From a virus, in the IMG/VR virus record IMGVR_UViG_3300044705_000037, positions 1 through 38,834 of that record: a stretch of DNA of 38,834 nucleotides; one strand, 5' to 3'. Made by a program: the position numbers and the translations under genes. The notes beneath the pieces were generated by a model that did not search any database, was not told where the DNA came from, and saw only the letters and a list, made by a program, of their open reading frames with translations. The number at the start of each line of letters is the position of its first letter. Position 1 is the stretch's first letter. Shown here in pieces: positions 128 through 37,264 of this stretch.

Positions 128-2991
128 CTCATGTTCCGACGACAGGTCCGAAGAACTTCCCCGAATTGCTTGACTCCATTCACAAGGAAGGTTTCTGGAA
201 GCCGGTTTTAGAACTCCCAATTATCGACATTTTCCCAGGAACCCAGACGGCGAAAGCTGCGTCTGAGACCGTACCGAGTGAGAAGTTCTTCGGCTATTCG
301 CTGCCCGGTGGAGTTAGCGGTCTTGTCCACGCTTTGCGAGACGACCCGACCAACATCGTTTTGGATCTCGCTCCTGTTGCTCATGAGGGAAGCAAACTTC
401 TGACGCGGGGGTCGGATCTTTCGGAGGAGGCTGCACAACACGCTGAGGACATCGGGTTCGCTGGACGGGCGGCCAAGTACCGCAAGTCTGGTCTTCCTCC
501 CCTTCCGGCAACCGGAGCTGTCTACCGACGAGTCGAAAGAAAGATCGAAGGCAAGTTTCCCAAGGTTCACGGTTACCTACCGACTGATCTGCTCCGAAAG
601 TCGGGACTGGGTGGTGCGCAGATGCGCCATCTCATGCGAATGATCGGCGAGGGCAGAAGTCATCACATGGCGTCGTTGAACAGTGAGTTGACTCGTCTGT
701 CCGGCATGGACAAGAAATTCGGCATGAAGACCGCCGATATCGAACGGGTGACCTCGGACATGGTTCACCCCTACGACAACTGGCGAACGACGTTGAAGGA
801 CGGCAAGCCCCGTCCCGCTAATGAAGTCAAGTGGATCCAGTGGATCGACTCCGAGACCAAGTTTTTGAAGGAGCAGTTCCCCCAGGAGTTCTTCTCCTGG
901 GGTGGTGAGGACTTTCTCCGTAGTCAGCATCCCGCGTTCGCCAAAACGGTGGACAGCGTAAACAAAGCACTCACTCGTCTCGACCAATTACGTCAGCAGA
1001 TGCTCACGGAGACCGATCCGGCCAAGCTTTCAAAGATCGGTCGTTTCTACAATCAATGGCTTCCGAAGTACGAGGAGAGAACTCTCAAGGCTTGGGAGCA
1101 GTTCGGGACACGCCCTCCGGCCAAGTACATGGACCTCACGCTCGATCATGTCCGTGCAAGAGAGATGCAGTTGTTGGAACAACGCAGTGGAGGAAACCTC
1201 GATCCTCATACCCAGGAGATGATTTCGTCTGGCATGTACGAGGACGCAGGGATATCCAAAGCTGAGCATGACGCCTTGCGTCGTGAGGAAGCAGCCAAGT
1301 GGCAGGACTATCGACACCTTGATCCGTCCTACGTCCATCACGTTGCCTATGACGAAGCTGGAGATGCGGCGCGACCGCGACTGATCACACGCATCACTAA
1401 ACCGAACGAGTTGAAGGCTCGGGCTTGGGACATGCGCCCGTGGATTGAGAATGCTTCTGTAGCCGTGTCGCATCAGTGGGCCGACTACGTTCACTATCTG
1501 GAGACCCAAAGACTCTCCGAGACAATGAAGGATTCTTCGGTCGTTCTCAGCCGTGAGGACATGATGGCCGAGACGCAGCGGTGGGCTAAGCTCATGAAAC
1601 AGGCCGGCGACAAACGGTCCTACGACTTGCTTTTAGACAATCTCCGGTCCCGGTACATGGTCTATGACCCGCGTTCGCTGTTTCCGCGTGAAGGTGGTGT
1701 GGGTTCTGGGGGCCGGGGTGATTTCTACATCCCCAAGGAACTTGCCAGAGCGTTGGAGCAGATGCGTCCGAAGGACAACTTTCTCAATGTCTCTTCGGTT
1801 GTCGGTCGGGGGATGGCTGCCGGTGCCCATCTGTTCCGCCTCTCCTACCTATATTTCAGGCCCTTCTACTACGTCCACGTTCTTGCTTCCGGTGCGGTAT
1901 TGACGCTGGCGCGAGGAGGCCCTAGGGATCTTCTCATGCTCCCAGAAGCTCTTCATGCGCTGATGACGGGTGACTACGGAAAGTTTCCCTCCGACCTTGG
2001 TTTAGGAACAGCGCGTATGGGAGCTCCGGAAGAGAACCGATTCATCGCCGGTGGCGCTCTCGGCGACAAGATGCTTCACGACTACGGCCAGATGGGTGAC
2101 GCCCGTTACGTTGCACGGCGGGTTGAGCATTTCACCCATTCGCTTGCTTCCTCGGCGCAGGACATGTGGAAGGCGGCCTCTTACCTCGCTGAGATGAAGC
2201 GGGCAAGCCGAAACCTGTCTACAGAAGAAGCCATGTCGTTAGCTGTGGAACACGCCAACAAGGTGTTTGGAACCATGGATGATCTCACGCCGTTCGAAAG
2301 GACCGTGGTTCGCCAGGTTCTTCCGTTCTATGCCTGGTCGAAGCATCTGGTTCAGTACGTTGTTTCCTACCCCTTCGATCATCCATGGAGGGCAGCCATC
2401 GCCAACAACCTCGGTCAGGCCGTTCTGGAGGATTGGGCTGCTCAGAAAAAGGATCTTCCCGCGCGGTATATGACGTACTTCTGGTTGGGTCAGAACAAGA
2501 AGGGCGAAGAGTTGCTCTTCCCCGCTTCTGGGTTGTTTCCCTTCGTTCAGGTGGCTGACATGTTCAACTTCGCGGGGTTCATGTCTCGCATGGATCCACG
2601 GCTCCAGGCCGTCTTGGAGTCGCGGGGCGTCGATCCAACGACTGGAGGTCCGATCCCAGACTGGCAACTCGCCCATCGCTTTGATGAGCGTTTAGGAAAG
2701 GAAGTACCTGTTCTTCCTTCGTTGCCGTCTGAACTGGCAAAGACGATGATCGGCCAAGCCGACCCTCTGTTATTTGATGACAACCTCAAGGCGTATTACG
2801 CACAACATCCCGACAGGCTCAGGGAAGCGTTGTTCAGGGCGTGGGCTGGGATCTCCCCCATGTGGAGAGACATCCCAACACAGCAGAAGGCCTTCCAGCG
2901 CCAGCAGCAATTCACCGCTTTGGATGAGCGCAAAAGGCTTCGGCGGCAACACAAGACGGCTGCGAGTTCAAGCGGGTACTGGCCGAAATGA
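1..2991 (+). CDS. Large internal virion (ejection-type) protein, main part; gene starts at 38516 and crosses the junction
   Basis: This is the C-terminal 996 residues of a protein of about 1,060 residues whose start lies at 38516 (64 codons before the junction). The frame is open through the joined ends. It is rich in charged helices over most of its length, with a hydrophobic stretch near the middle (about 1840-1910). Around residue 830 it has the motif PFERTVVRQVLPFYAW, which recurs in large internal proteins at the end of short-tailed phage structural operons. It follows the virion lysozyme gene and overlaps the methyltransferase gene by ATGA. By position and size it is probably injected with the DNA to build the trans-envelope channel. 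No enzyme motif was recognised, so the role rests on context and that one motif. Confidence 0.75.
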   Translation, partial: ELNKGLTFLAGGHAPGFMRGDVPGSELQFKWRGWSHLPFDHTAHVPTTGPKNFPELLDSIHKEGFWKPVLELPIIDIFPGTQTAKAASETVPSEKFFGYSLPGGVSGLVHALRDDPTNIVLDLAPVAHEGSKLLTRGSDLSEEAAQHAEDIGFAGRAAKYRKSGLPPLPATGAVYRRVERKIEGKFPKVHGYLPTDLLRKSGLGGAQMRHLMRMIGEGRSHHMASLNSELTRLSGMDKKFGMKTADIERVTSDMVHPYDNWRTTLKDGKPRPANEVKWIQWIDSETKFLKEQFPQEFFSWGGEDFLRSQHPAFAKTVDSVNKALTRLDQLRQQMLTETDPAKLSKIGRFYNQWLPKYEERTLKAWEQFGTRPPAKYMDLTLDHVRAREMQLLEQRSGGNLDPHTQEMISSGMYEDAGISKAEHDALRREEAAKWQDYRHLDPSYVHHVAYDEAGDAARPRLITRITKPNELKARAWDMRPWIENASVAVSHQWADYVHYLETQRLSETMKDSSVVLSREDMMAETQRWAKLMKQAGDKRSYDLLLDNLRSRYMVYDPRSLFPREGGVGSGGRGDFYIPKELARALEQMRPKDNFLNVSSVVGRGMAAGAHLFRLSYLYFRPFYYVHVLASGAVLTLARGGPRDLLMLPEALHALMTGDYGKFPSDLGLGTARMGAPEENRFIAGGALGDKMLHDYGQMGDARYVARRVEHFTHSLASSAQDMWKAASYLAEMKRASRNLSTEEAMSLAVEHANKVFGTMDDLTPFERTVVRQVLPFYAWSKHLVQYVVSYPFDHPWRAAIANNLGQAVLEDWAAQKKDLPARYMTYFWLGQNKKGEELLFPASGLFPFVQVADMFNFAGFMSRMDPRLQAVLESRGVDPTTGGPIPDWQLAHRFDERLGKEVPVLPSLPSELAKTMIGQADPLLFDDNLKAYYAQHPDRLREALFRAWAGISPMWRDIPTQQKAFQRQQQFTALDERKRLRRQHKTAASSSGYWPK

Positions 2992-3641
2992 TCCTTCCTC
3001 TCGACTACCCCCACGGAGAACTGGAGCTCTACGCCGACTCCGAAACTGAGAAGACCCTGCGGGTAGGAGCCTGTAAGAAAGAACCGGAGACGATTGCTTT
3101 CCTGGAGTCCATCCCCAAAGGCAGAGTCTTCTACGACATCGGGGCCAACGTCGGGAGCTACACCCTCATCGCTGCCTACCTGAAGCTCAAGGTCCACGCC
3201 TTCGAACCGGTGGGAGCCAACTACCAAAAGCTCATCAGGAACCTGGCTTTGAACAACCTGAACGCGAGTCTTCACCCGGTTCTTCTGTGGAGCAAGACGG
3301 GGAGCGTGGGCTTCCGGCTGTCCTCCGACGAGCCGGGAGCCGCTCTCCATGAAGTCTCTGACTCCGCCGAGCCTTGGATGTGCTGGACTCTGGACGACTG
3401 GATCGACTGGCAGAAGATTCCCTCTCCGCAGTACATGAAGCTGGATGTGGACGGTGCAGAGCTAGAGGTTCTGAGAGGCGCTACAAAGGCCCTGCAAGGC
3501 GTTAGAAGCCTTCAGGTGGAGCAGGACGCCACAAAGCCCGAAAATGACGTAAAAGGTCTGCTGTCCGGACTAGGCTTCACCCAGGTCAAAGAAACGGTTC
3601 ACGGAGGCGGACCCATATCCAATGTCCTATGGAGCAGGTAG
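2988..3641 (+). CDS. FkbM-family SAM-dependent methyltransferase
   Basis: The protein has 217 residues. The SAM-binding loop FYDIGANVGSYT lies at residues 48-59, and the family hallmark LDVDGAELEVLRGA lies near residues 152-165. FkbM-type enzymes O-methylate small molecules and sugars, often in glycan clusters. The start ATG overlaps the stop of the virion protein (ATGA), so it is translated with late genes. With NeuA, NeuB and the cupin elsewhere in the genome, a role in modifying a surface or virion glycan is a reasonable inference, but the substrate cannot be read from sequence. Confidence 0.85.
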   Translation: MILPLDYPHGELELYADSETEKTLRVGACKKEPETIAFLESIPKGRVFYDIGANVGSYTLIAAYLKLKVHAFEPVGANYQKLIRNLALNNLNASLHPVLLWSKTGSVGFRLSSDEPGAALHEVSDSAEPWMCWTLDDWIDWQKIPSPQYMKLDVDGAELEVLRGATKALQGVRSLQVEQDATKPENDVKGLLSGLGFTQVKETVHGGGPISNVLWSR

Positions 3642-4046: not shown

Positions 4047-4238
4047 ATGACGAAATACCTGAAAGCCGTGGTGGCCTTCCTGGCCCCGACGATCACCCAG
4101 CTAACGGTTCAGCTTCAGCAGCCCAAACCCGACTGGCACGCCATGGGGGTGACGGCGATTGTCGGGGTGTTTACCGCCCTAGTGGTGTGGGCTGTACCAA
4201 ATACGACTCCGCAACAACCCAATCCTCCGGCGAGTTGA
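4047..4238 (+). CDS. Holin-like small membrane protein
   Basis: The protein has 63 residues. A first hydrophobic segment (YLKAVVAFLAPTIT) is followed by a short polar loop with a Trp, then a second segment (GVTAIVGVFTALVVWAVPN) and a Pro-rich polar tail. This pattern, including VVWxVPN after helix two, is typical of holins of actinobacterial phages. It starts immediately after the preceding stop. Its last 68 bases overlap the 3' end of the opposing neuA gene, so the two transcripts converge without an intergenic terminator. Confidence 0.7.
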   Translation: MTKYLKAVVAFLAPTITQLTVQLQQPKPDWHAMGVTAIVGVFTALVVWAVPNTTPQQPNPPAS

Positions 4239-4908
4239 TGTCCAAGGCTTCGGCGCCTTCAACAATGAACCCCGCCACCCGTGACCCGCTGATGGAGTTC
4301 AATTCCAAGGGAGTACGGGTCCAGGCGATCTCCAGTCCCCCCGTCTGGACGTAGACCGGGGGAAGCGACTGAGTGGGTTCGTTGTGCATCCTTTTGCCGA
4401 GCCCTGGATCGAGCATGGGTTTCATCTCCGAATTGAGGTTGAAGACCCACATCTTCCCCGGGTGTTCAGAAACTTCTCTGACGGCCCTCAGGGAGTCGTA
4501 GCGGTCCCGCAGACTCATCCATTCGCTGACTGCCGCCTGAATGGTCTCAGGACCTCTGAAGGGGCTTGTAGGACGTAGGAGGCAGTACTCGTCATCGGGT
4601 TCAGGAAGGCCTCGGGTTTGGTCGTAGCGGAAGTCCTGGGCGTGCAAGGCATGTTTGATCCAGTCCAGGTCCGGTGAGTCGTCCTGGGCCAAGTGTTCTG
4701 GACGCATCACGATCTCGAGCTTCCCGCACCAGTCCAAGGCTGTCTTGGCGATCTCTTCTGAATCTGTTGATAGGACGATCCGATCGAAGCACTCGGCATC
4801 GAAGGCAGCTTGGAGGGTGTGTACCAATAGTGGTTTGTCGTCAAGGAGTCTCAGATTCTTGTTCGGAATGCGCTTGCTTCCCGATCTGGCACCGATGAGA
4901 GCGATCAC
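4171..4908 (-). CDS. neuA: CMP-nonulosonate (acylneuraminate) cytidylyltransferase
   Basis: This enzyme joins CTP to a sialic-acid-like sugar to give the CMP-activated donor. Residues 6-18 carry the nucleotide loop GARSGSKRIPNKN, 46-53 carry LSTDSEEI, 112-118 carry RPTSPFR, and the C-terminal part keeps PPVYVQTGG and ALDINSPEDW. Its 245 residues are normal for the family. I chose the GTG at 4908 because it overlaps the cupin stop (GTGA), has GGGAG upstream and begins the protein where the family does; a GTG five codons upstream is possible. It is the second gene of a two-gene minus-strand unit placed between the holin and the endolysin. CMP-Neu5Ac, CMP-legionaminate and CMP-Kdo-like substrates cannot be separated by eye. 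Confidence 0.88.
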   Translation of the reverse strand: MIALIGARSGSKRIPNKNLRLLDDKPLLVHTLQAAFDAECFDRIVLSTDSEEIAKTALDWCGKLEIVMRPEHLAQDDSPDLDWIKHALHAQDFRYDQTRGLPEPDDEYCLLRPTSPFRGPETIQAAVSEWMSLRDRYDSLRAVREVSEHPGKMWVFNLNSEMKPMLDPGLGKRMHNEPTQSLPPVYVQTGGLEIAWTRTPLELNSISGSRVAGFIVEGAEALDINSPEDWVVAESYLVQPTPLGR

Positions 4909-5330
4909 CACCACTTCTCCCACATCGTCACGTCCTCCGGTCCTGTAGACGGCAAAGCATCGGGCGGTACTGGAACCCCGAACTGTTCTTCCATGCCCTC
5001 ACGGTCGTTTCTGTGCGGCGTGGAGACTTCCAGGATCACGCAGTCGGTCACCGCTTCTTCCTGGTGAATACATCCCGGAGGGAAGTGAACACTCTGACCC
5101 CGCTTCAAGGGGACGGTGATGATCGACTCACCTTCGGTGTAGCGAACCAGAAGACGTCCCTTGAGGACGTGTCCTGACTCATCCTTGAAGTGATGCCGCT
5201 GCAACCTGCCTTTTGTTCCGGCCTTCATGTAGAGCAGCTTCATCGTTGCCACGCCGGGAACGAGAGCCGCAACGACCTCGGTGCCCCAAGGGCGTTGCTC
5301 GCTGAGGGGTTCGTAGAATTCAGGCTTCAT
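4905..5330 (-). CDS. Single-domain cupin protein
   Basis: The protein has 141 residues with ATG at 5330. It shows cupin motif 1 in altered form (RHHFKDESGHVLKGRLLVRY, residues about 43-62) and motif 2 (FPPGCIHQEEAV), the double-stranded beta-helix fold used by sugar isomerases, epimerases and WbuC-like proteins. It is the first gene of the unit with neuA and overlaps it by GTGA, so it probably acts on the same sugar, for example as an isomerase, epimerase or binding protein. Substrate unknown. No confident promoter or ribosome site was seen in the 50-bp divergent gap to the endolysin. Confidence 0.75.
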   Translation of the reverse strand: MKPEFYEPLSEQRPWGTEVVAALVPGVATMKLLYMKAGTKGRLQRHHFKDESGHVLKGRLLVRYTEGESIITVPLKRGQSVHFPPGCIHQEEAVTDCVILEVSTPHRNDREGMEEQFGVPVPPDALPSTGPEDVTMWEKWW

Positions 5331-5346
5331 CCGGTCCGCAAGGACT

Positions 5347-5374
5347 ATGACAGATGTCGCAGACAAAGTAGAGT
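5347..5374 (+). promoter_or_regulatory. Putative promoter of the endolysin unit, leaderless start
   Basis: The -35 is ATGACA (5347-5352), followed by a 16-bp spacer and the -10 TAGAGT (5369-5374). The endolysin ATG begins six bases after the -10, so the transcript would start on or next to the A of ATG. No Shine-Dalgarno precedes that ATG. The geometry matches the promoter before 10089. Confidence 0.5.
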
Positions 5375-5380
5375 CATCAG

Positions 5381-5998
5381 ATGCGGACGATGTTCGACGC
5401 AGTAGACGCCAAGGATGTTCCTGCTTCTGGGTTTGACCTGCTTGCCGGCTACACAAACGGCCAGTACAAGAGCTACGGTCCACTTCTCCAGCGGTTCCCC
5501 AACACCGTGGTCGTTCCGATAGACGTCCTCAACCAACCAGGGATGGGACGGGTTCTTGACATCGAGACCGGGGACGCCACACCCGCCGATGCTCCCAGGT
5601 GGTTCGACAACTCCATCACCCTGGGGGTTCACCGACCGACCCTGTACTACTCAGCTTCTCTCCACAGCGCCGTGAAGGGGTCTATGGGGTCACGAAAGTA
5701 CGATGCCTGGATCGCTGAGTACGGACCCCAGTTAACGGTTCACAGCGATGCTCAGGTCAATGTGGTGGCCTGGCAGAAGGCCGATCACGGACCCCACGGT
5801 GAGAACATCGACGTATCGGACGTTTTTGACGACACTTGGAACCCGACAGGAGACGACATGACCCCAGAAGAATCGAGCAAGCTCACCCAGGTCTGGAGCG
5901 AGGTCCACCAGATCTTCGCTCCCCAGAACACCCAGATCATCCAGCTCCTCCAGGAGATCAAAGGGTTGCTTCAGAACCAGCAACCTGCTAGTCAGTAG
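5381..5998 (+). CDS. GH25-like TIM-barrel endolysin (Rv2525c/DUF1906-type)
   Basis: The protein has 205 residues. The first 150 follow a beta/alpha barrel pattern with FDAVDAKD at the N-terminus, GYTNGQYKSY at about 23-32, and the acidic strand VLDIETGDATP at 58-68, which fits a GH25-type D-x-E catalytic pair. HGPHGENIDVS near residue 140 is also typical. These domains are common in lysis genes of actinobacterial phages and probably cut peptidoglycan. The C-terminal 40 residues form a helical, coiled-coil-like tail. There is no signal peptide, so release would depend on the holin. The start is set by the leaderless promoter. Confidence 0.72.
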   Translation: MRTMFDAVDAKDVPASGFDLLAGYTNGQYKSYGPLLQRFPNTVVVPIDVLNQPGMGRVLDIETGDATPADAPRWFDNSITLGVHRPTLYYSASLHSAVKGSMGSRKYDAWIAEYGPQLTVHSDAQVNVVAWQKADHGPHGENIDVSDVFDDTWNPTGDDMTPEESSKLTQVWSEVHQIFAPQNTQIIQLLQEIKGLLQNQQPASQ

Positions 5999-8462: not shown

Positions 8463-8919
8463 GGTCTTCGACCTTCCAGGCCAACCATCCGCAAGAAGGA
8501 ATTTCCTGGATCCACTTCTTGGACCCGTTGTCGGTGACGAAGTGACCCTTGCCGCCGCATTTGAGCTCAGGCAGAGCGGGTTTGCCCTGATCCCCACGCT
8601 TGATGTTGGCAGCACGGTTGTCCTTGACCTTCTGACCGCACTGGGGGCAGGTCGTAGGAATGCCATTAGAGGCGCTAGAAGGGGCCTGTGGGGCGTTCTG
8701 AGACGCCATAGGCTGCGGAGTGCCCGAGAAGGTCTGATGGATGTTCTGGACGGCTTCCTGATGTGTCGGGGCCATGACCCACTCAACGAACATCCCTGCC
8801 AGTTCGGTGACCTCTGAGTAGACGTTTCCCATGTCGAAGGTCGGAGGCATGCGGGAGGCAAGGACGGTGCCGGCGACTTTCAAGCAGGACTGGCGAATGA
8901 TCTGAAGTTCGGTGCTCAC
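8449..8919 (-). CDS. Hypothetical protein with C-terminal zinc ribbon
   Basis: The protein has 156 residues from GTG 8919 (GTGA overlap). Residues 1-65 are helical (LKVAGTVLASRM, VTELAGMFVEWVM). A Ser/Pro/Gln linker leads to CPQCGQKVKDN near residue 91 and ELKCGGKGHFVTDNGSKKW, a zinc-ribbon-like element. Phage proteins with this layout are often near single-strand-binding or recombination genes, but I cannot assign a function. Confidence 0.68.
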   Translation of the reverse strand: MSTELQIIRQSCLKVAGTVLASRMPPTFDMGNVYSEVTELAGMFVEWVMAPTHQEAVQNIHQTFSGTPQPMASQNAPQAPSSASNGIPTTCPQCGQKVKDNRAANIKRGDQGKPALPELKCGGKGHFVTDNGSKKWIQEIPSCGWLAWKVEDLASA

Positions 8920-9584
8920 TTGACCAGCTCCCGCCAGTCGGCACCGTAGACCTCAACGATGGGAAGCATGAGGAGATCTTTCTGCTCCTGAGAGAAGCGA
9001 GGACCGACAGGGGCGAGCGCAGCCCAGGCAGCAACCCCGGCAGCAGCCCTGGCAGCATCCCCGGCAGCATCCCAGGCAGCATCCCAGGCAGCAGCCCTGG
9101 CAGCATCCCCGGCAGCATCCCAGGCAGCATCCCAGGCAGCATCCCTGGCAGCATCCCCGGCAGCATCCCCGGCAGCAGCCCTGGCAGCAACCCAGGCAGC
9201 AGCCCTGGCAGCATCCCAGGCAGCAGCCAGGTGTGCTAGCTGCGTGGCATTTGACCGAGCGAATAACCGAACGAGGTCGGCCCACTCCTTCCAGTTGGGG
9301 CCGAAGGTCTTCTCGAAGTCATCGTCTGTCAGGTCAAGGCCTTTGAGGAGGAACAAGACTTCATCCCGATCCCGTCCCGGAGCGTCGTTCCATTCGGTTC
9401 CGTAGCCATTGGCGTGGAGCCAAGCGGAAACGATGTAACCGTCACCCTTCTGCGGGCTGCACATCCGAACTGCCTGGTGCAGGCAGACCGATCCGTCCTC
9501 TCCCGTCCAGGAACCGGAGACCCAGCCCTTTTTGAGGATCTGATCGGCTGCCTGCCAGGGAACTTGCGCTAGTTCGTTGGCCAC
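8916..9584 (-). CDS. Ala-rich DAAW/DAAG/DAAR tetrad-repeat protein
   Basis: The protein has 222 residues from GTG 9584 (GGGAGA upstream). Residues 1-115 are an ordinary globular-looking domain with Trp and Cys (WVSGSWTGEDGSVCLHQAV). Residues about 119-189 are some 17 tetrads of the form [D/A/V]-A-A-[W/G/R], then a 30-residue C-terminal cap. The tetrads would place Trp, Gly and Arg along a helix at four-residue spacing. Ala-rich repeats of this kind occur in other phage proteins of unknown function. Its first bases overlap the previous small gene. Confidence 0.72.
   Translation of the reverse strand: MANELAQVPWQAADQILKKGWVSGSWTGEDGSVCLHQAVRMCSPQKGDGYIVSAWLHANGYGTEWNDAPGRDRDEVLFLLKGLDLTDDDFEKTFGPNWKEWADLVRLFARSNATQLAHLAAAWDAARAAAWVAARAAAGDAAGDAARDAAWDAAWDAAGDAARAAAWDAAWDAAGDAARAAAGVAAWAALAPVGPRFSQEQKDLLMLPIVEVYGADWRELVK
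9018..9230 (-). repeat. Imperfect 12-bp tandem repeats inside the DAAW gene
   Basis: On the plus strand the unit is GGCAGCATCCCM or GGCAGCAGCCCT, repeated about 17 times and encoding the tetrads. Unit variants are shuffled and not in blocks, consistent with slippage and unequal exchange. Antisense Pro/Leu/Gly-rich frames across it are shadows. Confidence 0.9.
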
Positions 9585-17816: not shown

Positions 17817-18103
17817 GCTTTGACGGCGGGATCTGGTCCTACATGGCCTCCACAGGCGCTGTGGGGACCACACACGTCATCCAGAAGGGCCAGAAGCTGC
17901 TGTCGCTTCGAGCCTTCGCCAAGACGGCAGACGGCAAAATTCAGATCACCCGAGGCACGGATACGACCTCTGGGTCCTCGACGGCCGACTTCATCGCTGT
18001 GAGAACAGGCACCGGCTTTGACTGGACGCCCGCCGGAAAGATCTCCCCTTGCGTGATCCTTGCCACCTCGCAGTGCGATGTGTTCATCGAGCGGTCGTCG
18101 TGA
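17813..18103 (+). CDS. Small beta-rich structural protein
   Basis: The 96-residue product is strand-rich (KLLSLRAFAKTADGKIQIT, GTDTTSGSSTADFIAV) and coupled by GTGA overlaps to genes on both sides. It is probably a minor capsid or decoration protein. No family recognised. Confidence 0.6.
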   Translation: MSFDGGIWSYMASTGAVGTTHVIQKGQKLLSLRAFAKTADGKIQITRGTDTTSGSSTADFIAVRTGTGFDWTPAGKISPCVILATSQCDVFIERSS

Positions 18104-19194
18104 GTAAGAGAATCCGAACCATCGGAGGTTCGGGTGGCGGTCAAGGCCCTGGAACAGCAGCTACGGTCAAGGTCGGTCCTGACTACGGCACGACCAACGA
18201 GAAGGTCGAGCTGCACCTGTCTCACCCTCAGGAGACCGTGCAGTACCCGATGACTCTTGAGGGCCACGTCCAGCACTCCCAGGAGCAGCAGACCTACCCG
18301 ATGTCTCCGGGCGGTCAGCTGGAGATGCACATCGGGTCTGTAGAGCAGGCCACCTACCCTATGAATCCGGGTGGACAACTGGAGTTACATCTCTCCCAGC
18401 TCAAGGAGTGCGGAACCTATCCCATGTCTCCTGGGGGTCAACTGGAAGGCCACGTCCAGCACAGCCAGGAGAAGGCCACCTACCCCATGAACCCCGGAGG
18501 CAATCTGGAGATGCACATCTCCGGATCGGTTAACGGTCCTCCGCAGTTCGAGAACTCGTTTACGGTGGGGTCTACAGCCTCGTCGGCGGCTGCCTTCACA
18601 GGGATTACAACGCTGATAGGTGCATATCTGCTTGCTGGTGTCTACACGGCAGGCGGAGCAGGAACAACCCAGACTCCTCCTGCGGGGTGGACCGAAATTC
18701 TGAATACCACCAACCTGTCTGGTACCACGGGATGCAAGGTGGGAACGTGGTATCGCTTCGTCCAGGCGGGAGATCCCTCCTCGTGGACGTTTAATACCAA
18801 CAGCCCTTCAGGAGTCGTCTGCGGGATCATCGGTCAATTTTCTGCCGTGGATTCAGGAGCGCCCATCAATGCGTCCGGAAAGTCAACTGGCGAGACGACG
18901 GCTGCTGTGGCGGCTTCGGTTACCGTGCCCAACCCCAATTGCATGGTGGTGGGAGTGGCTGGATTCACTCATACCGTTACCGGTCCTGTCTTCGCTGCCG
19001 TTTCGCCCTACACCCAAAGGGCCACCTCGACAGGGGCCATCACCGGGGTAACGGGTGGGATCGAGATGTGCACCCATGTTCAGATGACCTCAGGGGCTTC
19101 TGGGACGATGACGGTGAACACCGGCGAGTCGGTAGCCGGGTTGTGGACGGCTCAGATCATTGCTTTGCATTCCACGGTAAGGGTGATTGCATGA
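18100..19194 (+). CDS. Repeat-bearing virion adhesin with C-terminal beta-sandwich domain
   Basis: The protein has 364 residues from GTG. Residues about 35-150 hold five units of 17-21 residues, each starting YPM and reading like YPMSPGGQLEMHI; units 1 and 4 share GHVQHSQE. The remaining 210 residues are a beta-sandwich with the pattern APAGWTEILNT, WYRFVQAGDPSSWTF, GQFSAVDSGAPI. The same pattern is found in the two large proteins at 26811 and 28112. It is probably an exposed head fibre or decoration protein. Confidence 0.68.
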   Translation: MSKRIRTIGGSGGGQGPGTAATVKVGPDYGTTNEKVELHLSHPQETVQYPMTLEGHVQHSQEQQTYPMSPGGQLEMHIGSVEQATYPMNPGGQLELHLSQLKECGTYPMSPGGQLEGHVQHSQEKATYPMNPGGNLEMHISGSVNGPPQFENSFTVGSTASSAAAFTGITTLIGAYLLAGVYTAGGAGTTQTPPAGWTEILNTTNLSGTTGCKVGTWYRFVQAGDPSSWTFNTNSPSGVVCGIIGQFSAVDSGAPINASGKSTGETTAAVAASVTVPNPNCMVVGVAGFTHTVTGPVFAAVSPYTQRATSTGAITGVTGGIEMCTHVQMTSGASGTMTVNTGESVAGLWTAQIIALHSTVRVIA

Positions 19195-32411: not shown

Positions 32412-32476
32412 ACCGCGCCTACATCGTCGCTGAAGATGCGAGGAGGTATCGTGCAACGCGCGTACTTGGTGGCTGA
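32408..32476 (+). pseudogene. Truncated 5' copy of neuB
   Basis: From GTG 32408 (GTGA overlap with the previous gene) the first nine codons read VNRAYIVAE and match the start of the full neuB at 32451 (VQRAYLVAE): 20 of 27 bases by my count. The frame then diverges and stops at 32476. It looks like the start of an older neuB left behind when a different allele was joined in. Confidence 0.55.
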
Positions 32477-33536
32477 GTTGGGCTCCAACCACCAGGGAGA
32501 CCTCGACCTGGCTTTGCAGATGATCGACGCCGCCGCATCAAGCGGTGCCAACGCCGTCAAGTTTCAGAAGAGAGACTTAACGACCTGCTACACCGCCGAA
32601 TACCTGGCAAGGCCCTATCACTCCGAGAACGCCTTCGGAAACACCTACGGAGAACACCGCAGACACCTTGAATTCGGATACGCCGAGTACCGCCTGCTCA
32701 AACGAAAGGCCAAGCAGGTCGGGGTGGAGTTCGGGGTCACCGCCTTCGATGAGCCCTCCGTGGACTTCCTTGCCGACCTCGGGGTGGACTTCATCAAGAT
32801 CGCCTCAGCGGACATCCACACCACACCGCTTCTGGTCCATGCTGTGGATTCAGGCATTCCCCTGGTGGTCAGTACCGGAACGGCAGACAAGAAGGCCGTA
32901 GAAGCCGCCTACGGCCTTCTGAGGGGCAAAGGAAACGAGTTCTCCCCCAACACCAAGTTCGCCTTCCTTGATTGCCTGGCGACCTACCCCAACGACTACG
33001 AGGACCTCGATCTGGCCTGCATTACCTGGATGAAGCAGGAGTTTCCCGACATCAAGATCGGGGCTTCCCTGCACACCAACGGTCCCGGCTTCGGACTGGT
33101 GGCAAGGGTTCTGGGTGCGGAGATCATCGAGATGCACTTCACCCTGGACCGTTCGATGAAGGGTTCCGACCACGCTTTCTCTTTGGAGCCCCAGGGCCTC
33201 GAGTGGCTTGTCGTCAACATCAGGCGATTCGAGAAGGCCTACAAGGACGGAGACAAGAAGGTTCACCCCAAGGAGATGGACGCCCTGGTGAAGCTCGGCA
33301 AGTCCTTGGTTCTGGCTCACTGGCTGCCGGCGGAGACAAAACTGACCAGAGCAGACCTCCGGTGGAAAACTCCCGGAGGAGGTATCCCCGCGTCCCACCT
33401 CAATGCGATAATCGGCAGGAAGCTGGCGTTTGACCGGGACGCCGACCACATGCTGTCGGAGGAAGATCTTGTCCCAGAGCCAGGCGCTAGACCTGATCAG
33501 CAAGCAGATCACCTTCGCGGAGTCGTTGCTTCCTAA
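32451..33536 (+). CDS. neuB: N-acetylneuraminate synthase-family enzyme
   Basis: The enzyme condenses PEP with a six-carbon amino sugar to give a sialic-acid-like nine-carbon acid. Of 361 residues, the TIM barrel has AELGSNHQGD (8-17), KFQ (37-39), STGTA (141-145), CLATYP, the two metal His in SLHT (208) and EMHFTLD (229), and GSDHAFSL. Two usual residues differ (SDHT to SLHT, EKHF to EMHF). A SAF/antifreeze-like domain (about 285-345, WKTPGGGIPASHL) follows. GTG 32451 has GGAGG close upstream; ATG 32436 is an alternative. It sits in the fibre region, far from neuA, and overlaps the next gene by 68 bases. Confidence 0.88.
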   Translation: MQRAYLVAELGSNHQGDLDLALQMIDAAASSGANAVKFQKRDLTTCYTAEYLARPYHSENAFGNTYGEHRRHLEFGYAEYRLLKRKAKQVGVEFGVTAFDEPSVDFLADLGVDFIKIASADIHTTPLLVHAVDSGIPLVVSTGTADKKAVEAAYGLLRGKGNEFSPNTKFAFLDCLATYPNDYEDLDLACITWMKQEFPDIKIGASLHTNGPGFGLVARVLGAEIIEMHFTLDRSMKGSDHAFSLEPQGLEWLVVNIRRFEKAYKDGDKKVHPKEMDALVKLGKSLVLAHWLPAETKLTRADLRWKTPGGGIPASHLNAIIGRKLAFDRDADHMLSEEDLVPEPGARPDQQADHLRGVVAS

Positions 33537-33693
33537 GCTCCTGGACGCAGATCAACCCAAGGTCCAGACGGAGATCGACGCCCTTAAATCACGGCTCGCT
33601 GAAGCGCTTTCGGTCTACCTATCCAGCATCCAGGCACAAAGCCCCTCAGACGTCCTGGGGAGCCCTCCCAGCCCCGGAGTGACCACGGTTTGA
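33469..33693 (+). CDS. Small helical protein before the adaptor
   Basis: The 74-residue product from TTG (GGAGG six bases upstream) is helical (QALDLISKQITFAESLLPK) with a Ser/Pro-rich end. It overlaps the end of neuB in another frame and the adaptor start (TTGA). Function unknown. Confidence 0.62.
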   Translation: MSQSQALDLISKQITFAESLLPKLLDADQPKVQTEIDALKSRLAEALSVYLSSIQAQSPSDVLGSPPSPGVTTV

Positions 33694-34385
33694 GCCAGAC
33701 ACTAGGAGAGCTGAAAGCGGACATCCTGGCCCACCTGGACGGGTCTCTGACAGGCTTCTGGACAGACGATCAATTGACCCGTTGGGCGAACGAATCATTA
33801 CGTGACATAGCAAGACGAAGCGAAGTTCTCCAGGACATCCGTTCCTACACCGTCATCGCGAATCAACTCACCTACGACCTACCTGAGGACATGATCCGCA
33901 TCTACCGGGTGGAGTACCGAAGAGACTCGGTGGATATCAGACCTTTGGAGTTCCAGCCCTTCCAGTCCATGGACGACATCTGGTACTGGTCAAGGGAGAT
34001 CACCGGATCGGAGCCCGACTACTACACGATCTGGGGCTATCCGGGAGGCGATTCATCGGCTCTGTACCTGTTCCCCGTCCCCTCAGAAACCCTTGCTGAT
34101 GGTCTTCGACTCTTCTACTACCGCCTCCCAAGAAAGATGGTCCAGGACGACGACCTAGCCGATTTACCTGCGGGGTGGGAAGACTTGGTTCCCCTCTACG
34201 TCGAAGTTGTGGCACGGCGTAAGGAAGCACGAGATCAGAGGTGGCAGGAGGCCTTTCAGCTTTACGAGCAAAGACTGGAGCAGATGATCCAGGTCACCCG
34301 TCAATGGACAGATCAGCAGTCCAACAACATCGCCTCCGACTCGGCACGCAGCCTGGCCTACTGGATCAGCGGAACGGAGTGGTGA
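33690..34385 (+). CDS. Head-to-tail adaptor protein
   Basis: The protein has 231 residues from TTG. An N-terminal helical part (LGELKADILAHLDGS, FWTDDQLTRWANESLRDIAR) is followed by YDLPEDMIRIYRVEYRRDSV, a beta region (YYTIWGYPGGDSSALYLFPV) and a helical end with PAGWEDLVPLYVEVVARRKE. This is the usual layout of podovirus adaptors/gatekeepers (T7 gp11 or P22 gp4 role), which form a ring below the portal. Confidence 0.82.
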   Translation: MSQTLGELKADILAHLDGSLTGFWTDDQLTRWANESLRDIARRSEVLQDIRSYTVIANQLTYDLPEDMIRIYRVEYRRDSVDIRPLEFQPFQSMDDIWYWSREITGSEPDYYTIWGYPGGDSSALYLFPVPSETLADGLRLFYYRLPRKMVQDDDLADLPAGWEDLVPLYVEVVARRKEARDQRWQEAFQLYEQRLEQMIQVTRQWTDQQSNNIASDSARSLAYWISGTEW

Positions 34386-34400
34386 ACGTTGCACGTTCAC
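34382..34400 (+). promoter_or_regulatory. Perfect 8-bp inverted repeat
   Basis: GTGAACGT-TGC-ACGTTCAC starts at the adaptor stop and ends 22 bases before the next GTG. The 8-bp stem with a 3-base loop could be an RNA hairpin or a protein-binding site. There is no U-run after it, so a terminator is unlikely. Confidence 0.5.
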
Positions 34401-34421
34401 GGCGCAACCAGGAGCGCGTAA

Positions 34422-35012
34422 GTGCCTCTCCGACTTCCGAAAGTCGTCCTCCCTCCCCTTCCGCTGACAGGATCTACATCTTTCGACAAAGCTTTTGACC
34501 TGTGGCGGCAGGACGTCTCCGACCTGTTCGCCAGAAACTTCCAGGAGATCGAGAACTTTCCTTACGGTCCAGCTGTTTACGCTTACCGCACGACCTCGGC
34601 AACCATCGCCTCAGCCACGGTGTCGGCTCTCAACATGGATGCGAACCTCCAGGACACCGACCGGATGCACACCACGGCAAACGATCAGTCCCGGGTCACC
34701 TTCAACACGGCGGGGTTTTACGTCTATGCCGGCTATCTGCCCTGGAAGGTCACCTCGACGGCAGGAAGCTTCCGTCAAACTTCGATCTGGATCAATGGCA
34801 CGACCTCTTTGGATGAGATGACCGTACCGCCTCGTCTGTCGGGTTCTTTGCAGGGCATCGCTTGTCCGGGGGTGCATTACTTCGCTGCACAGGACTACAT
34901 CCAGCTCGTCGGCAATCACGACGCAGGAGTCAATGTCGGAATCAACGCCACGACAGCCGGTCCCCGTCCTCATCTTGCTGCCGGAATCCTTGTCGAAGTT
35001 CCACCGAAGTAA
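34422..35012 (+). CDS. Tail-module protein with C1q/TNF-like beta domain
   Basis: The protein has 196 residues from GTG, with AGGAG seven bases upstream. After a Pro-rich start and a helix (FDLWRQDVSDLFARNFQEIE), the remaining 150 residues are a jelly-roll-like domain (VYAYRTTSATIASA, VTFNTAGFYVYAGYLPWKV, RQTSIWINGTT, PGVHYFAAQDYIQLVGNHDA), as in phage collar or receptor-binding accessory proteins. It lies between adaptor and nozzle genes. Overlaps the next ATG (TAATG). Confidence 0.62.
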   Translation: MPLRLPKVVLPPLPLTGSTSFDKAFDLWRQDVSDLFARNFQEIENFPYGPAVYAYRTTSATIASATVSALNMDANLQDTDRMHTTANDQSRVTFNTAGFYVYAGYLPWKVTSTAGSFRQTSIWINGTTSLDEMTVPPRLSGSLQGIACPGVHYFAAQDYIQLVGNHDAGVNVGINATTAGPRPHLAAGILVEVPPK

Positions 35013-35083
35013 TGGCTACCAAACGCCTAGCCAAACCCCAGGTCTCCAAAGACGACCGGGGTCTTCAGTGGGAGACCTTATGA
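35012..35083 (+). pseudogene. Truncated 5' copy of the nozzle-like gene
   Basis: The 23-codon frame begins MATKRLAKPQVSKDDRGLQW and stops at 35083. It matches the first 21 residues of the gene at 35513 at 18 positions, while only 44 of 63 bases agree by my count. It keeps the TAATG coupling expected of the original gene. The endonuclease gene begins inside its last codon, so this is probably the original start cut off by an insertion. Confidence 0.8.
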
Positions 35084-35511
35084 AGAGAAGACCCTCGGTT
35101 CCGTGGTCAGAAGAGAAGCGAGCAGCTCATCGGGAGTACTCCAGGAGGTATCGAACGGAGGGTCCGAAGTACCGAAGGGCTTACCCCAATCCTGCTTCTC
35201 GATCTCCATCAACAACAGATATTCATTGGGCTGCTGGGTTTCTTGAAGGGGAGGGTTGTTTTGCTCCGAACATGAAAGGCTGTCAACAGGTAAGTGCCGC
35301 CCAGGTCGAATGGGACCCCCTAGTTCGTTTGGTGCAGATGTTTGGCGGTTCTGTCAACTCCGTTAAGCGCGGTAAGACTACGTTGAAGTGCACCCCTGCT
35401 CTTGTTTGGAGGATTACGGGAGCAAGAGCGCGAGGCGTCATGATGACGCTCTATCCGATGATGTCCCCGAAACGCCAACAGAAGATCCGAGAGTGTCTAG
35501 CAAACGAGTGA
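35080..35511 (+). CDS. LAGLIDADG-type homing endonuclease
   Basis: The protein has 143 residues. After a basic Arg/Tyr-rich N-terminus comes AAGFLEGEGCF (51-61), a LAGLIDADG helix, then VSAAQVEWDPLVRLVQMFGG, VWRITGARARGVMMTLYP and MSPKRQQKI, the standard order of a single-motif enzyme that works as a homodimer. It lies between a truncated and a full copy of the same gene start. Its codons use more AT-ending forms than its neighbours, suggesting recent arrival. Confidence 0.8.
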   Translation: MKRRPSVPWSEEKRAAHREYSRRYRTEGPKYRRAYPNPASRSPSTTDIHWAAGFLEGEGCFAPNMKGCQQVSAAQVEWDPLVRLVQMFGGSVNSVKRGKTTLKCTPALVWRITGARARGVMMTLYPMMSPKRQQKIRECLANE

Positions 35512-35512
35512 C

Positions 35513-37264
35513 ATGGCGACAAAGAGACTCGCTAAGCCGCAGATATCAAAAGATGAGCGCGGATATCAGTGGGAACTGTTCTCCGACTTCAGCAACGGCC
35601 TGTGGCAGAGAGGCGACGACAGGGAGTGTCCGAGAAACGGTCTTCTCTCCCTGACGGACGCCTACCCCTTGCCGACAGGGGGTCTGAGAGCTTGGGGAAC
35701 CTGGCAGCCCATGACCATGACGGGGATCACGAACAACTCCTACATCCTCGGGGTCTGGTCCATCGGAGGAGTCGATCCGTTGGCGGGGATCTACTGCTGC
35801 ACCCTCGAATGTGATCCGACCAACCAGGACAACTCCACCTTCAGGCTCTACAAGCTGTCCGGAACCTCAAACGGCGGAACACCTGAATCCTCGATCACAG
35901 GCGGGACGTGGAACGTCCTGATGACCATCACAGCTTTGAAAGCTTTTTCTGCCACTCAGCACCTGACTCCCTACCGCTTCACCACGGGGGCCAACAACAC
36001 CTATGCCGTGTTCTTCAACCTCGGAGTCGGGACCTCAGCGGCAGCTCCCGTAGCGGACACAACGCTGTCGGGGATCTACAGGTCGGACGGAACCACGGGG
36101 TTCAGGGACTTCTACTTCCCGTGGACGGCAGACTGCTTCGGACATCAGTTGTCGTTGATGTTCACGGCCATCGAGCCCGGAGGTCAGCTGTCCCTGCACA
36201 ACCAGATCGCCTACACCAACGTGGCCTCAGACGCCCAACCCACCACGGTCAACGCCTTCTTCCCACTTCCGAACTTCTCTTCCCCCATCACCTGGGTTTC
36301 TCCCGTGGAGCCTTCCGACCTCATCGTTGCCAAGTCGGAGATCGGCCTTGCGCTGATTCAGGGAGACATCACCAACCCCATCCAACGGCAGATCTCCTTC
36401 GCTCACGCCGTATCGGTTGTCAGACCCGTGAACACCGACACCGGGTTAGCGATCTCGGTCTCTGATGACTCGGTGTATGTCTGGACGGGTTCTCAACTCA
36501 AGGACATCGCCAACCAGCTTTTAGGGAACCCGACAGAACCCACCTTCTTCGGATCGGCAACAGCCAAAGGCTTCGACACCAACCGCTTCGACATCATCGG
36601 AGAACCGACCTTTCGTGTGGCTTCCTGGGGTCACACCGGACAAATGGACTTCGGTGAGTACACGCTGTTCGCGGGAAACACCTACTGCTGGGATGAGAGA
36701 ACGGAAAGCTGGTACCAGTTCACCTCGAATGTCACAAGAGGTGAAGGCCAGCCGGCCCGCTACTGCGTGGACCGGGTGAACCAGCGGGTCTACCAGGCCT
36801 ACAACATGTCCATGCAGTCCTCTCGCCAACTGCTGTGGTGGGAGAACCTCCAGGAGACCGACTACCACAGAGCCTCCTCCTACACCTTCACCCTTCCGCT
36901 GATCTATTCGGATCACGGCTTTACGCAGTTACGGGAGATCGAGTACTACCTGGCCCTGTTCGCACACGAGTCGGTCCTGCAGGTGAGAATCGAGTCCATG
37001 GACCACGAAGGAAACATCACGGTTCAGGATCTTGAGCCACGCACGGTCACCCTTCCAGGAGTGGCACCAGCGGCCGTCAGAGGCGATCTGAGGCCCTCTG
37101 GGGCCTCGACCAGTGTCCGGATAGCAGACATCCCCGGAACGGCCTCCATGTACTGGAAGATCACGACGACTCTTTCTGCGTTGAATCACATCGAAGCTCC
37201 GATGCTGGAGAAGGTCATGGTGGCCACGGCACCGCTGGCAGGAAGGCTTTCCGGTGGCAACTGA
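35513..37264 (+). CDS. Tail nozzle/stabilisation-like protein (beta-propeller type)
   Basis: The protein has 583 residues. After the N-terminus MATKRLAKPQISKDERGYQW comes a long series of beta strands with repeated Gly/Trp/Asp patterns (LRAWGTWQPMTMTGITNNS, VARSW-like blades such as FRVASWGHTGQMDFGEYTL), consistent with a propeller as in the podovirus tail nozzle (T7 gp12 or P22 gp10 role). The position after the adaptor and before the internal virion proteins supports this. The 5' end is a second, diverged copy brought next to the endonuclease gene. Confidence 0.68.
   Translation: MATKRLAKPQISKDERGYQWELFSDFSNGLWQRGDDRECPRNGLLSLTDAYPLPTGGLRAWGTWQPMTMTGITNNSYILGVWSIGGVDPLAGIYCCTLECDPTNQDNSTFRLYKLSGTSNGGTPESSITGGTWNVLMTITALKAFSATQHLTPYRFTTGANNTYAVFFNLGVGTSAAAPVADTTLSGIYRSDGTTGFRDFYFPWTADCFGHQLSLMFTAIEPGGQLSLHNQIAYTNVASDAQPTTVNAFFPLPNFSSPITWVSPVEPSDLIVAKSEIGLALIQGDITNPIQRQISFAHAVSVVRPVNTDTGLAISVSDDSVYVWTGSQLKDIANQLLGNPTEPTFFGSATAKGFDTNRFDIIGEPTFRVASWGHTGQMDFGEYTLFAGNTYCWDERTESWYQFTSNVTRGEGQPARYCVDRVNQRVYQAYNMSMQSSRQLLWWENLQETDYHRASSYTFTLPLIYSDHGFTQLREIEYYLALFAHESVLQVRIESMDHEGNITVQDLEPRTVTLPGVAPAAVRGDLRPSGASTSVRIADIPGTASMYWKITTTLSALNHIEAPMLEKVMVATAPLAGRLSGGN

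Follow-up and report, generated by a model that had tools for sequence, protein, structure and literature searches.

A phage LAGLIDADG endonuclease gene between two diverged copies of a virion gene tip: a probable homing cassette carrying a replacement gene end

We analyzed a stretch of phage DNA of 38,834 nucleotides (hereafter, the window; positions 1 to 38,834 of the IMG/VR virus record IMGVR_UViG_3300044705_000037), in which the gene of a LAGLIDADG endonuclease is located between two old, diverged copies of the 5′ end of a nozzle-like virion gene, and found the mirror-image arrangement, with copies of a 3′ end, at the portal genes of two other phages. The reading that we favor, with a probability of about 0.74, is that the endonuclease gene and a recoded gene tip together constitute a homing cassette, which would restore the target gene and leave no intact cleavage site in it. 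A preliminary description of this DNA, made from the sequence without database searches, had proposed a gene-tip-replacing homing element. This proposal remains the best reading, with the target gene complete and the two mirror-image cases at hand, but it is supported only in part. Its weaker parts are the destruction of the cleavage site, the target being only conjectured, and the assignment of the remaining short copy (the stub) to the native allele, which is favored by composition only weakly.

Layout of the locus and its parts

The coordinates of the features are listed in Table 1. The stub, the endonuclease gene and the complete nozzle-like gene are arranged head to tail in this order, the last being located two genes downstream of the SU10-type adaptor gene. 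The upstream gene, for which no match was found in Pfam or PHROG, has its TAA at 35010-35012, the final A of which also opens the stub ATG. The stub, which is presumed to be the remnant of the interrupted native 5′ end, is translated as MATKRLAKPQVSKDDRGLQWETL* (23 codons), and its TGA at 35081-35083 overlaps the endonuclease ATG (TTATGA). The endonuclease gene ends with TGA at 35509-35511, and the complete nozzle-like gene, which begins with MATKRLAKPQISKDERGYQWELFSDFSNGL..., starts one base on. Thus, the positions given earlier for the stub, the intervening endonuclease gene and the gene start were correct, as was the claim that the upstream gene still overlaps the stub. The cassette boundary was placed on the basis that the stub and the homology to the second tip end at the same codon. 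A GGGAG sequence is present in the Trp-Glu codons of the stub, 5 bases before the endonuclease ATG, and, judging from this position, the target gene may supply the ribosome-binding site of the endonuclease.

Table 1. Positions of the features of the locus in the window.
Feature	Position	Strand	Basis
SU10-type head-tail adaptor gene	33690..34385	+	Pfam PF24175, E 2.7e-23
Upstream virion-region gene	34422..35012	+	ORF; stop overlaps stub ATG
Stub, first 22 2/3 codons of nozzle-like gene	35012..35083	+	residue match to gene start
Left half of conjectured cleavage site	35067..35079	+	joined to 35581-35588: AGTGGGAGA-CCT-TCTCCGACT
LAGLIDADG endonuclease gene, 143 aa, single motif WAAGFLEGEGCF	35080..35511	+	PHROG 5046, model, Foldseek
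Inferred mobile cassette, endonuclease and recoded tip, 501 bp	35080..35580	+	homology limits; boundary +/- a few bases
Second, recoded gene tip, 22 codons plus TT of codon 23	35513..35580	+	synonymous divergence, codon usage
Complete nozzle-like gene, 583 aa	35513..37264	+	hhalign; N-terminal motif

The endonuclease was assigned to PHROG 5046 with an E of 1e-15. Its AlphaFold model (mean pLDDT 87) has the order alpha-beta-beta-alpha-beta-beta-alpha, and the best PDB matches by Foldseek were I-CreI, which was the top match with a TM of about 0.5, and I-MsoI (E 3e-4 to 1e-3). A profile search of the PDB gave mainly LAGLIDADG enzymes at a weak level (E 0.05), and the Pfam LAGLIDADG_1 match was only below the cut-off; the motif is the invariant core of the family alignment. 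The LAGLIDADG identity claimed earlier is therefore borne out by the motif, the predicted fold order and the top Foldseek match, and the enzyme is, as far as the model indicates, a single-motif LAGLIDADG endonuclease in the homodimer size class, the active form being probably homodimeric. The name "HNH endonuclease" is used for PHROG 5046 by PHROGs as well as by many GenBank records, for example at the family loci L041-L048, and this label is probably an annotation error, considering the motif and the predicted fold. A search of positions 34800-35800 against Rfam gave no match to intron RNA up to an E of 1. Since intron RNA was not detected in this region and the target gene forms a complete ORF of its own, the element is neither an intron nor an intein. 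An intron-borne endonuclease (group I or II) was rejected also because the gene is restored by the second start and not by splicing, and an intein because the endonuclease is encoded in a separate ORF, with a start and a stop of its own, and the stub likewise ends with a stop codon.

For the 583-aa product of the target gene, no match was found in Pfam, PHROG or NCBIfam. In phages whose major capsid protein is related (42-52% identity), the same virion gene block encodes a 540-660-aa protein with an N-terminal motif such as VQWIQIRDFKPGL, NYQWIQIKDFSPGI or TDYIELSDFTPGI. A profile of seven such proteins was aligned with the window protein at an hhalign probability of 78.5 and an E of 1.7e-5, the alignment covering its central part; the motif at the N-terminus, which is QW..x.DFSPGI in common and QWELFSDFSNGL in the window, was matched by eye. 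The earlier label "nozzle" may accordingly be kept in the form of a nozzle-like virion protein of this family, a placement made by sequence. The stub ends inside this motif (QWETL/F), just before the conserved DFSPGI-like part, indicating that the endonuclease sits in the best-conserved stretch of the gene start. The nozzle-like gene is located between the capsid and adaptor genes in the phages G003, G005, G007, G012 and G018 and after the adaptor gene in the window (33690-37264), so that the gene block is rearranged compared with those phages.

Allelic relatives of the nozzle gene were found neither in phages (E up to 10), viral contigs and genome contigs nor in 23 other-phage records reached through related loci; in the examined records of the last kind, a nozzle-like gene precedes the adaptor gene and is too diverged for a blast-type search. 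Scans for relatives with the adaptor, terminase and portal gave nothing or only distant kin. Because no allele without the endonuclease was found in the viral contigs, genome contigs and other-phage records, the empty site is hypothetical.

The window also encodes a NeuB-type sugar synthase between tail genes (32436-33536, +), as well as a cytidylyltransferase (4171-4923, -), a cupin (4905-5483, -) and an FkbM-type methyltransferase (2988-3641, +), and it is possible that these four represent a phage-encoded set for acidic-sugar modification. A run of tandem AARDAAWDAAGDAA-type repeats is present in a DUF6197 protein (8916-9584, -), and at least four TYPMSPGGQLEMHI-type repeats are present in the protein encoded at 18049-19194 (+).

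Divergence and composition of the two gene tips

The stub and the gene start are identical at 18 of 21 residues and 44 of 63 bases, which reproduces both figures of the preliminary description, and the match reaches codon 23, the stub ending in the TT of a Phe/Leu codon. The first 60 amino acids of the nozzle-like gene product gave a score of 100 with the stub, compared with a best score of 55 for random 350-nt windows at other loci (n = 19,878), and no other pair of stretches in the window was equally similar, except for low-complexity or tandem repeats at 9.0 and 18.3 kb. The 19 differing bases represent 14 synonymous and 5 non-synonymous changes, resulting in a pS of 1.05, at which synonymous sites are saturated, and a pN of 0.10. 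When neutral decay with 19 changes was simulated (200,000 simulations per direction), about 9 of the 21 residues were kept and never 18. Thus, the saturation of synonymous sites with retention of the protein indicates that the tips are old alleles and not products of a recent tandem duplication, and the simulations indicate that they diverged under protein-level selection in separate genomes, the stub having been orphaned recently. The earlier claim of another allele as the source of the second start is hence strongly supported, and two further loci of this endonuclease family with the arrangement in mirror image, described below, reinforce it. That the gene start was recently duplicated in tandem, or that sequences of two strains were joined by misassembly, is highly improbable: beyond the presence of two copies and the origin of the record as a metagenomic contig, nothing speaks for it, and it is already contradicted by the synonymous saturation with the protein conserved. 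Furthermore, the longest exact word common to both tips is 9 bp, which is too short to mislead a k-mer assembler and likewise speaks against a recent duplication, and independent contigs have the same design.

With regard to composition, the GC3 was 0.545 for the second tip, 0.68 for the stub, 0.72 for the genome and 0.53 for the endonuclease gene. The codon usage, given the amino acids, was ordinary in the stub (P 0.23) and unusual in the second tip (P 0.004) and the endonuclease gene (P <0.001). The second tip therefore does have the lower GC3 that the preliminary description had led us to expect, but the contrast is weaker than was stated there, since 11% of all 22-codon stretches of the phage have a GC3 as low. 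This weakness is the point in favor of the reverse direction of replacement, in which the second tip and the gene body would be native and the stub and the endonuclease gene, perhaps together with the upstream gene, would have come in. We consider it improbable, because it is the second tip and not the stub that has unusual codon usage, because the low GC3 of the endonuclease gene resembles that of the second tip and because the stub retains the overlap with the upstream gene. Composition and the analogy with known elements thus weakly suggest that the stub is native and that the endonuclease gene and the second tip are incoming. Identical codons were used in the two tips at 3 of 16 positions, compared with 5.4-6.9 expected (P 0.03-0.14), which is at best suggestive of selection for tip dissimilarity beyond saturation.

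Recurrence in the endonuclease family

Relatives of the endonuclease were collected from viral contigs (80), phages (8) and genomes (5), resulting in about 94 loci with some near-duplicates. For 89 loci, we determined whether the end of the gene adjoining the endonuclease recurs on its other side, using swapped loci as the control. Only the window, L075 (IMGVR_UViG_3300009537_002503) and L082 (IMGVR_UViG_3300005536_000013) beat every swapped-locus control. The 5′ tip of the window scored 100 with a null maximum of 64, and the portal 3′ tips scored 89 in L075 and 73 in L082 with a null maximum of 69. When re-tested against about 19,870 random windows, L082 scored 97 against 73, and the score of 89 for L075 was equalled elsewhere only by the homologous portal of L082. 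An all-frames version of the scan was swamped by low-complexity off-frame matches and is not the valid one, and L075 and L082 were missed when the scan was limited to the nearest long ORF, probably because this was not the right one.

In both L075 and L082, the target is the portal gene (PHROG 1216), of which the 3′ tip is duplicated around the endonuclease gene, and the start of the latter overlaps the end of the intact portal copy. The portal of L082 ends with ...DVRNPEDMMPFNDQIAAEVEQQG...GSstop, and after the endonuclease there is a complete remnant, RNPEEILGFTDQTAAAVEQAG...GGAVstop, inside which the endonuclease stop codon lies. The tip pair of L075 is VPQLQGNLQALSTMGAGQ and VPQLQANLNALQSLGAGQ, the remnant running to the contig end. 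The overlapping starts in both loci and the stop in the remnant of L082 indicate that the endonuclease ORF abuts the junctions as in the window. The synonymous divergence of the portal tip pairs was near saturation, with a pS of 0.69 and 0.70 and a pN of 0.24 and 0.23 for L075 and L082, respectively. In all three loci, therefore, the endonuclease gene has a full-length gene on one side and a fragment from one end of that gene on the other, and the copies are diverged alleles with the protein conserved, as in the tip-replacing elements of yeasts and fungal mitochondria (WHO elements and mORFs). The endonucleases of L075 and L082 have an N-terminal Cys/His segment (2393-2500 and 2351-2450, respectively), which is absent from the window enzyme and resembles the zinc-binding part of phage HNH enzymes (PHROG 5351).

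The endonucleases of L075 and L082 are sisters (99/82 support) and are apart from that of the window in the tree, indicating that tip carriage occurs in two regions of the family tree and involves two target genes, one at its 5′ end and the other at its 3′ end; a single early gain in the family would also be compatible with the tree. About 91 of the 94 loci have no detectable tip duplication, and tip carriage is hence not a constant feature of the family. No clear duplication was found at the five genomic loci, and the locus of the nearest endonuclease, L067, is beside unrelated genes without duplication.

The main rival reading is that a free-standing homing gene, located in the donor upstream of an intact nozzle gene and without a stub, was copied together with the adjoining donor gene start in one homing event with co-conversion, in which faulty joining on the left produced the stub as a one-off scar; the element would then not be a cassette that is passed on as a unit. 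Most family members do sit between genes without tip duplicates, and it is established that phage homing enzymes co-convert flanking sequences (T4 SegG, cited in PMC10448857). However, two more phages have the same arrangement at a second gene, the endonuclease ORF in each case adjoining the junctions or lying close to them, and the stub breaks off at the very codon at which the gene body takes over from the second tip with its atypical composition. Such an accident could explain the window alone but not easily a repeated design, and we regard it as unlikely. Taken together, the recurrence at portal genes is, from the comparison of loci, the strongest new evidence pointing to a tip-carrying design.

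Several family members (L083, L084, L086, L091-L094 and L149) are encoded directly downstream of homologous capsid-like genes, L149 being a locus in a Cupriavidus necator genome, and others are beside nucleotide-metabolism genes. In L002 (3840-3990), the last capsid-like codons before a related endonuclease look AT-rich in a GC-rich genome, and this gene end could possibly be another replaced end without a visible remnant.

Proposed mechanism and relation to known elements

Under the homing-cassette reading, the endonuclease would act in a co-infected cell, cutting the nozzle-like gene of a phage genome near codon 23, and repair would copy the 501-bp cassette from the donor genome into the cut, with the upstream gene and the stub as the left homology and the body of the nozzle gene as the right. 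The tip of the recipient would stay behind as the stub, and the carried tip would be joined in frame to the recipient gene body, by which the essential virion gene would be rebuilt. The halves of the cut site would then be separated by 501 bp. Because the tips differ so strongly at synonymous sites, the site would not be cut again, and the stub and the tip would not recombine with each other, an event that would excise the cassette. The cassette may be mobile at present.

When the stub is joined to the gene body, the resulting site holds a near-palindrome centered at the junction with 8 of 9 arm bases paired, and four bases differ at the junction. This near-palindrome is only a candidate for the target of the enzyme. 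It was found post hoc, an equally good palindrome being present at 0.6% of window positions (P 0.006), and its odd-length center is unexpected for an enzyme leaving 4-nt overhangs. At the other junctions, a comparable palindrome was absent in L082 and weak in L075, and we therefore did not use it as evidence. Another palindrome, GGTCTTC-AGTG-GGAGACC inside the stub, was rejected as the target because it survives intact in the stub, where the element would cut itself.

The preliminary description had cited ATP6 of fungal mitochondria as the precedent, which is real (PMC3630166), and the WHO elements of Torulaspora and Lachancea yeasts are a closer one (Coughlan et al. 2020, PMC7282813). In the latter, an endonuclease gene replaces the end of the essential gene FBA1 at each integration; the unit consists of the endonuclease and a cleavage-resistant gene end, and a fragment of the old end remains and serves as a homologous arm (PMC7282813). 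The window likewise has an endonuclease, a replacement gene end and a leftover fragment, and L075 and L082 share even the polarity of WHO (3′ end). The WHO protein is large, HO/VDE-like and encoded in eukaryotic nuclei, with allele-specific cleavage demonstrated and fragment clusters described (PMC7282813), whereas the window has a putative 143-aa single-motif enzyme in a phage, which would replace a 5′ end. Membership in the WHO protein family was rejected, since the enzyme is nearest I-CreI in fold and is located at a phage virion gene, not FBA1. By analogy, the window appears to be the WHO model in mirror image.

In the fungal mitochondrial mORFs of atp6, atp9, cox2 and nad3 (Glomus; atp6 in Allomyces), an endonuclease ORF, which encodes a LAGLIDADG enzyme in most cases and a GIY-YIG enzyme in atp9, adjoins a foreign gene terminus, and the native terminus is left beyond the ORF; the atp6 tips have 63.5% nucleotide and 91% amino acid identity (PMC3630166). 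The window has the same architecture, and its tips are also far more alike in protein than in DNA. The mORFs replace C-termini in mitochondria, whereas the replaced end would be N-terminal in the phage of the window and C-terminal in L075 and L082. Mitochondrial introns of Tremella with N-terminal duplications, for which a route of partial gene replacement has been proposed (PMC7315562), also combine a duplicated gene part with a mobile element, but they are described as introns. Free-standing phage homing genes such as T4 seg are intergenic and spread by cutting near their own site with co-conversion of flanks, and, unlike the window, no duplicated recoded gene tip is described for them in the parts of these sources that we draw on (PMC2988022, PMC10448857). 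The PHROG 5046 enzymes of Arthrobacter, Microbacterium and other phages belong to the same protein family as the window enzyme, and their loci that were examined have no tip duplication. No description of a tip-carrying homing element in phages was found in the literature searched, which took in little of the subscription literature. The design is thus known from yeasts and fungal mitochondria, and what appears from the present loci to be new is that it is phage-borne, involves a different enzyme family and concerns both gene ends.

It may further be proposed that one LAGLIDADG family in phages has acquired recoded ends of essential virion genes (nozzle and portal) time and again, 5′ in some cases and 3′ in others, giving natural "home and rescue" drives that evolved independently of those in fungi and in which recoding blocks both recutting and excision by recombination. 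We consider the chances for and against this proposal to be even. The evidence base of the present analysis consists of metagenomic contig sequences, with three cases in about 94 loci. The cassettes are short and well defined (about 0.5 kb, with a homodimer-sized enzyme), which makes the mechanism directly testable by a cleavage assay. If the homing-cassette reading is true, homing genes could enter the coding sequences of essential phage genes with neither an intron nor an intein, since they would bring along the part of the gene that is lost. Partial-gene mosaicism of virion genes in phages would then have a mechanism, and engineered homing drives with a recoded rescue would have a counterpart in nature.
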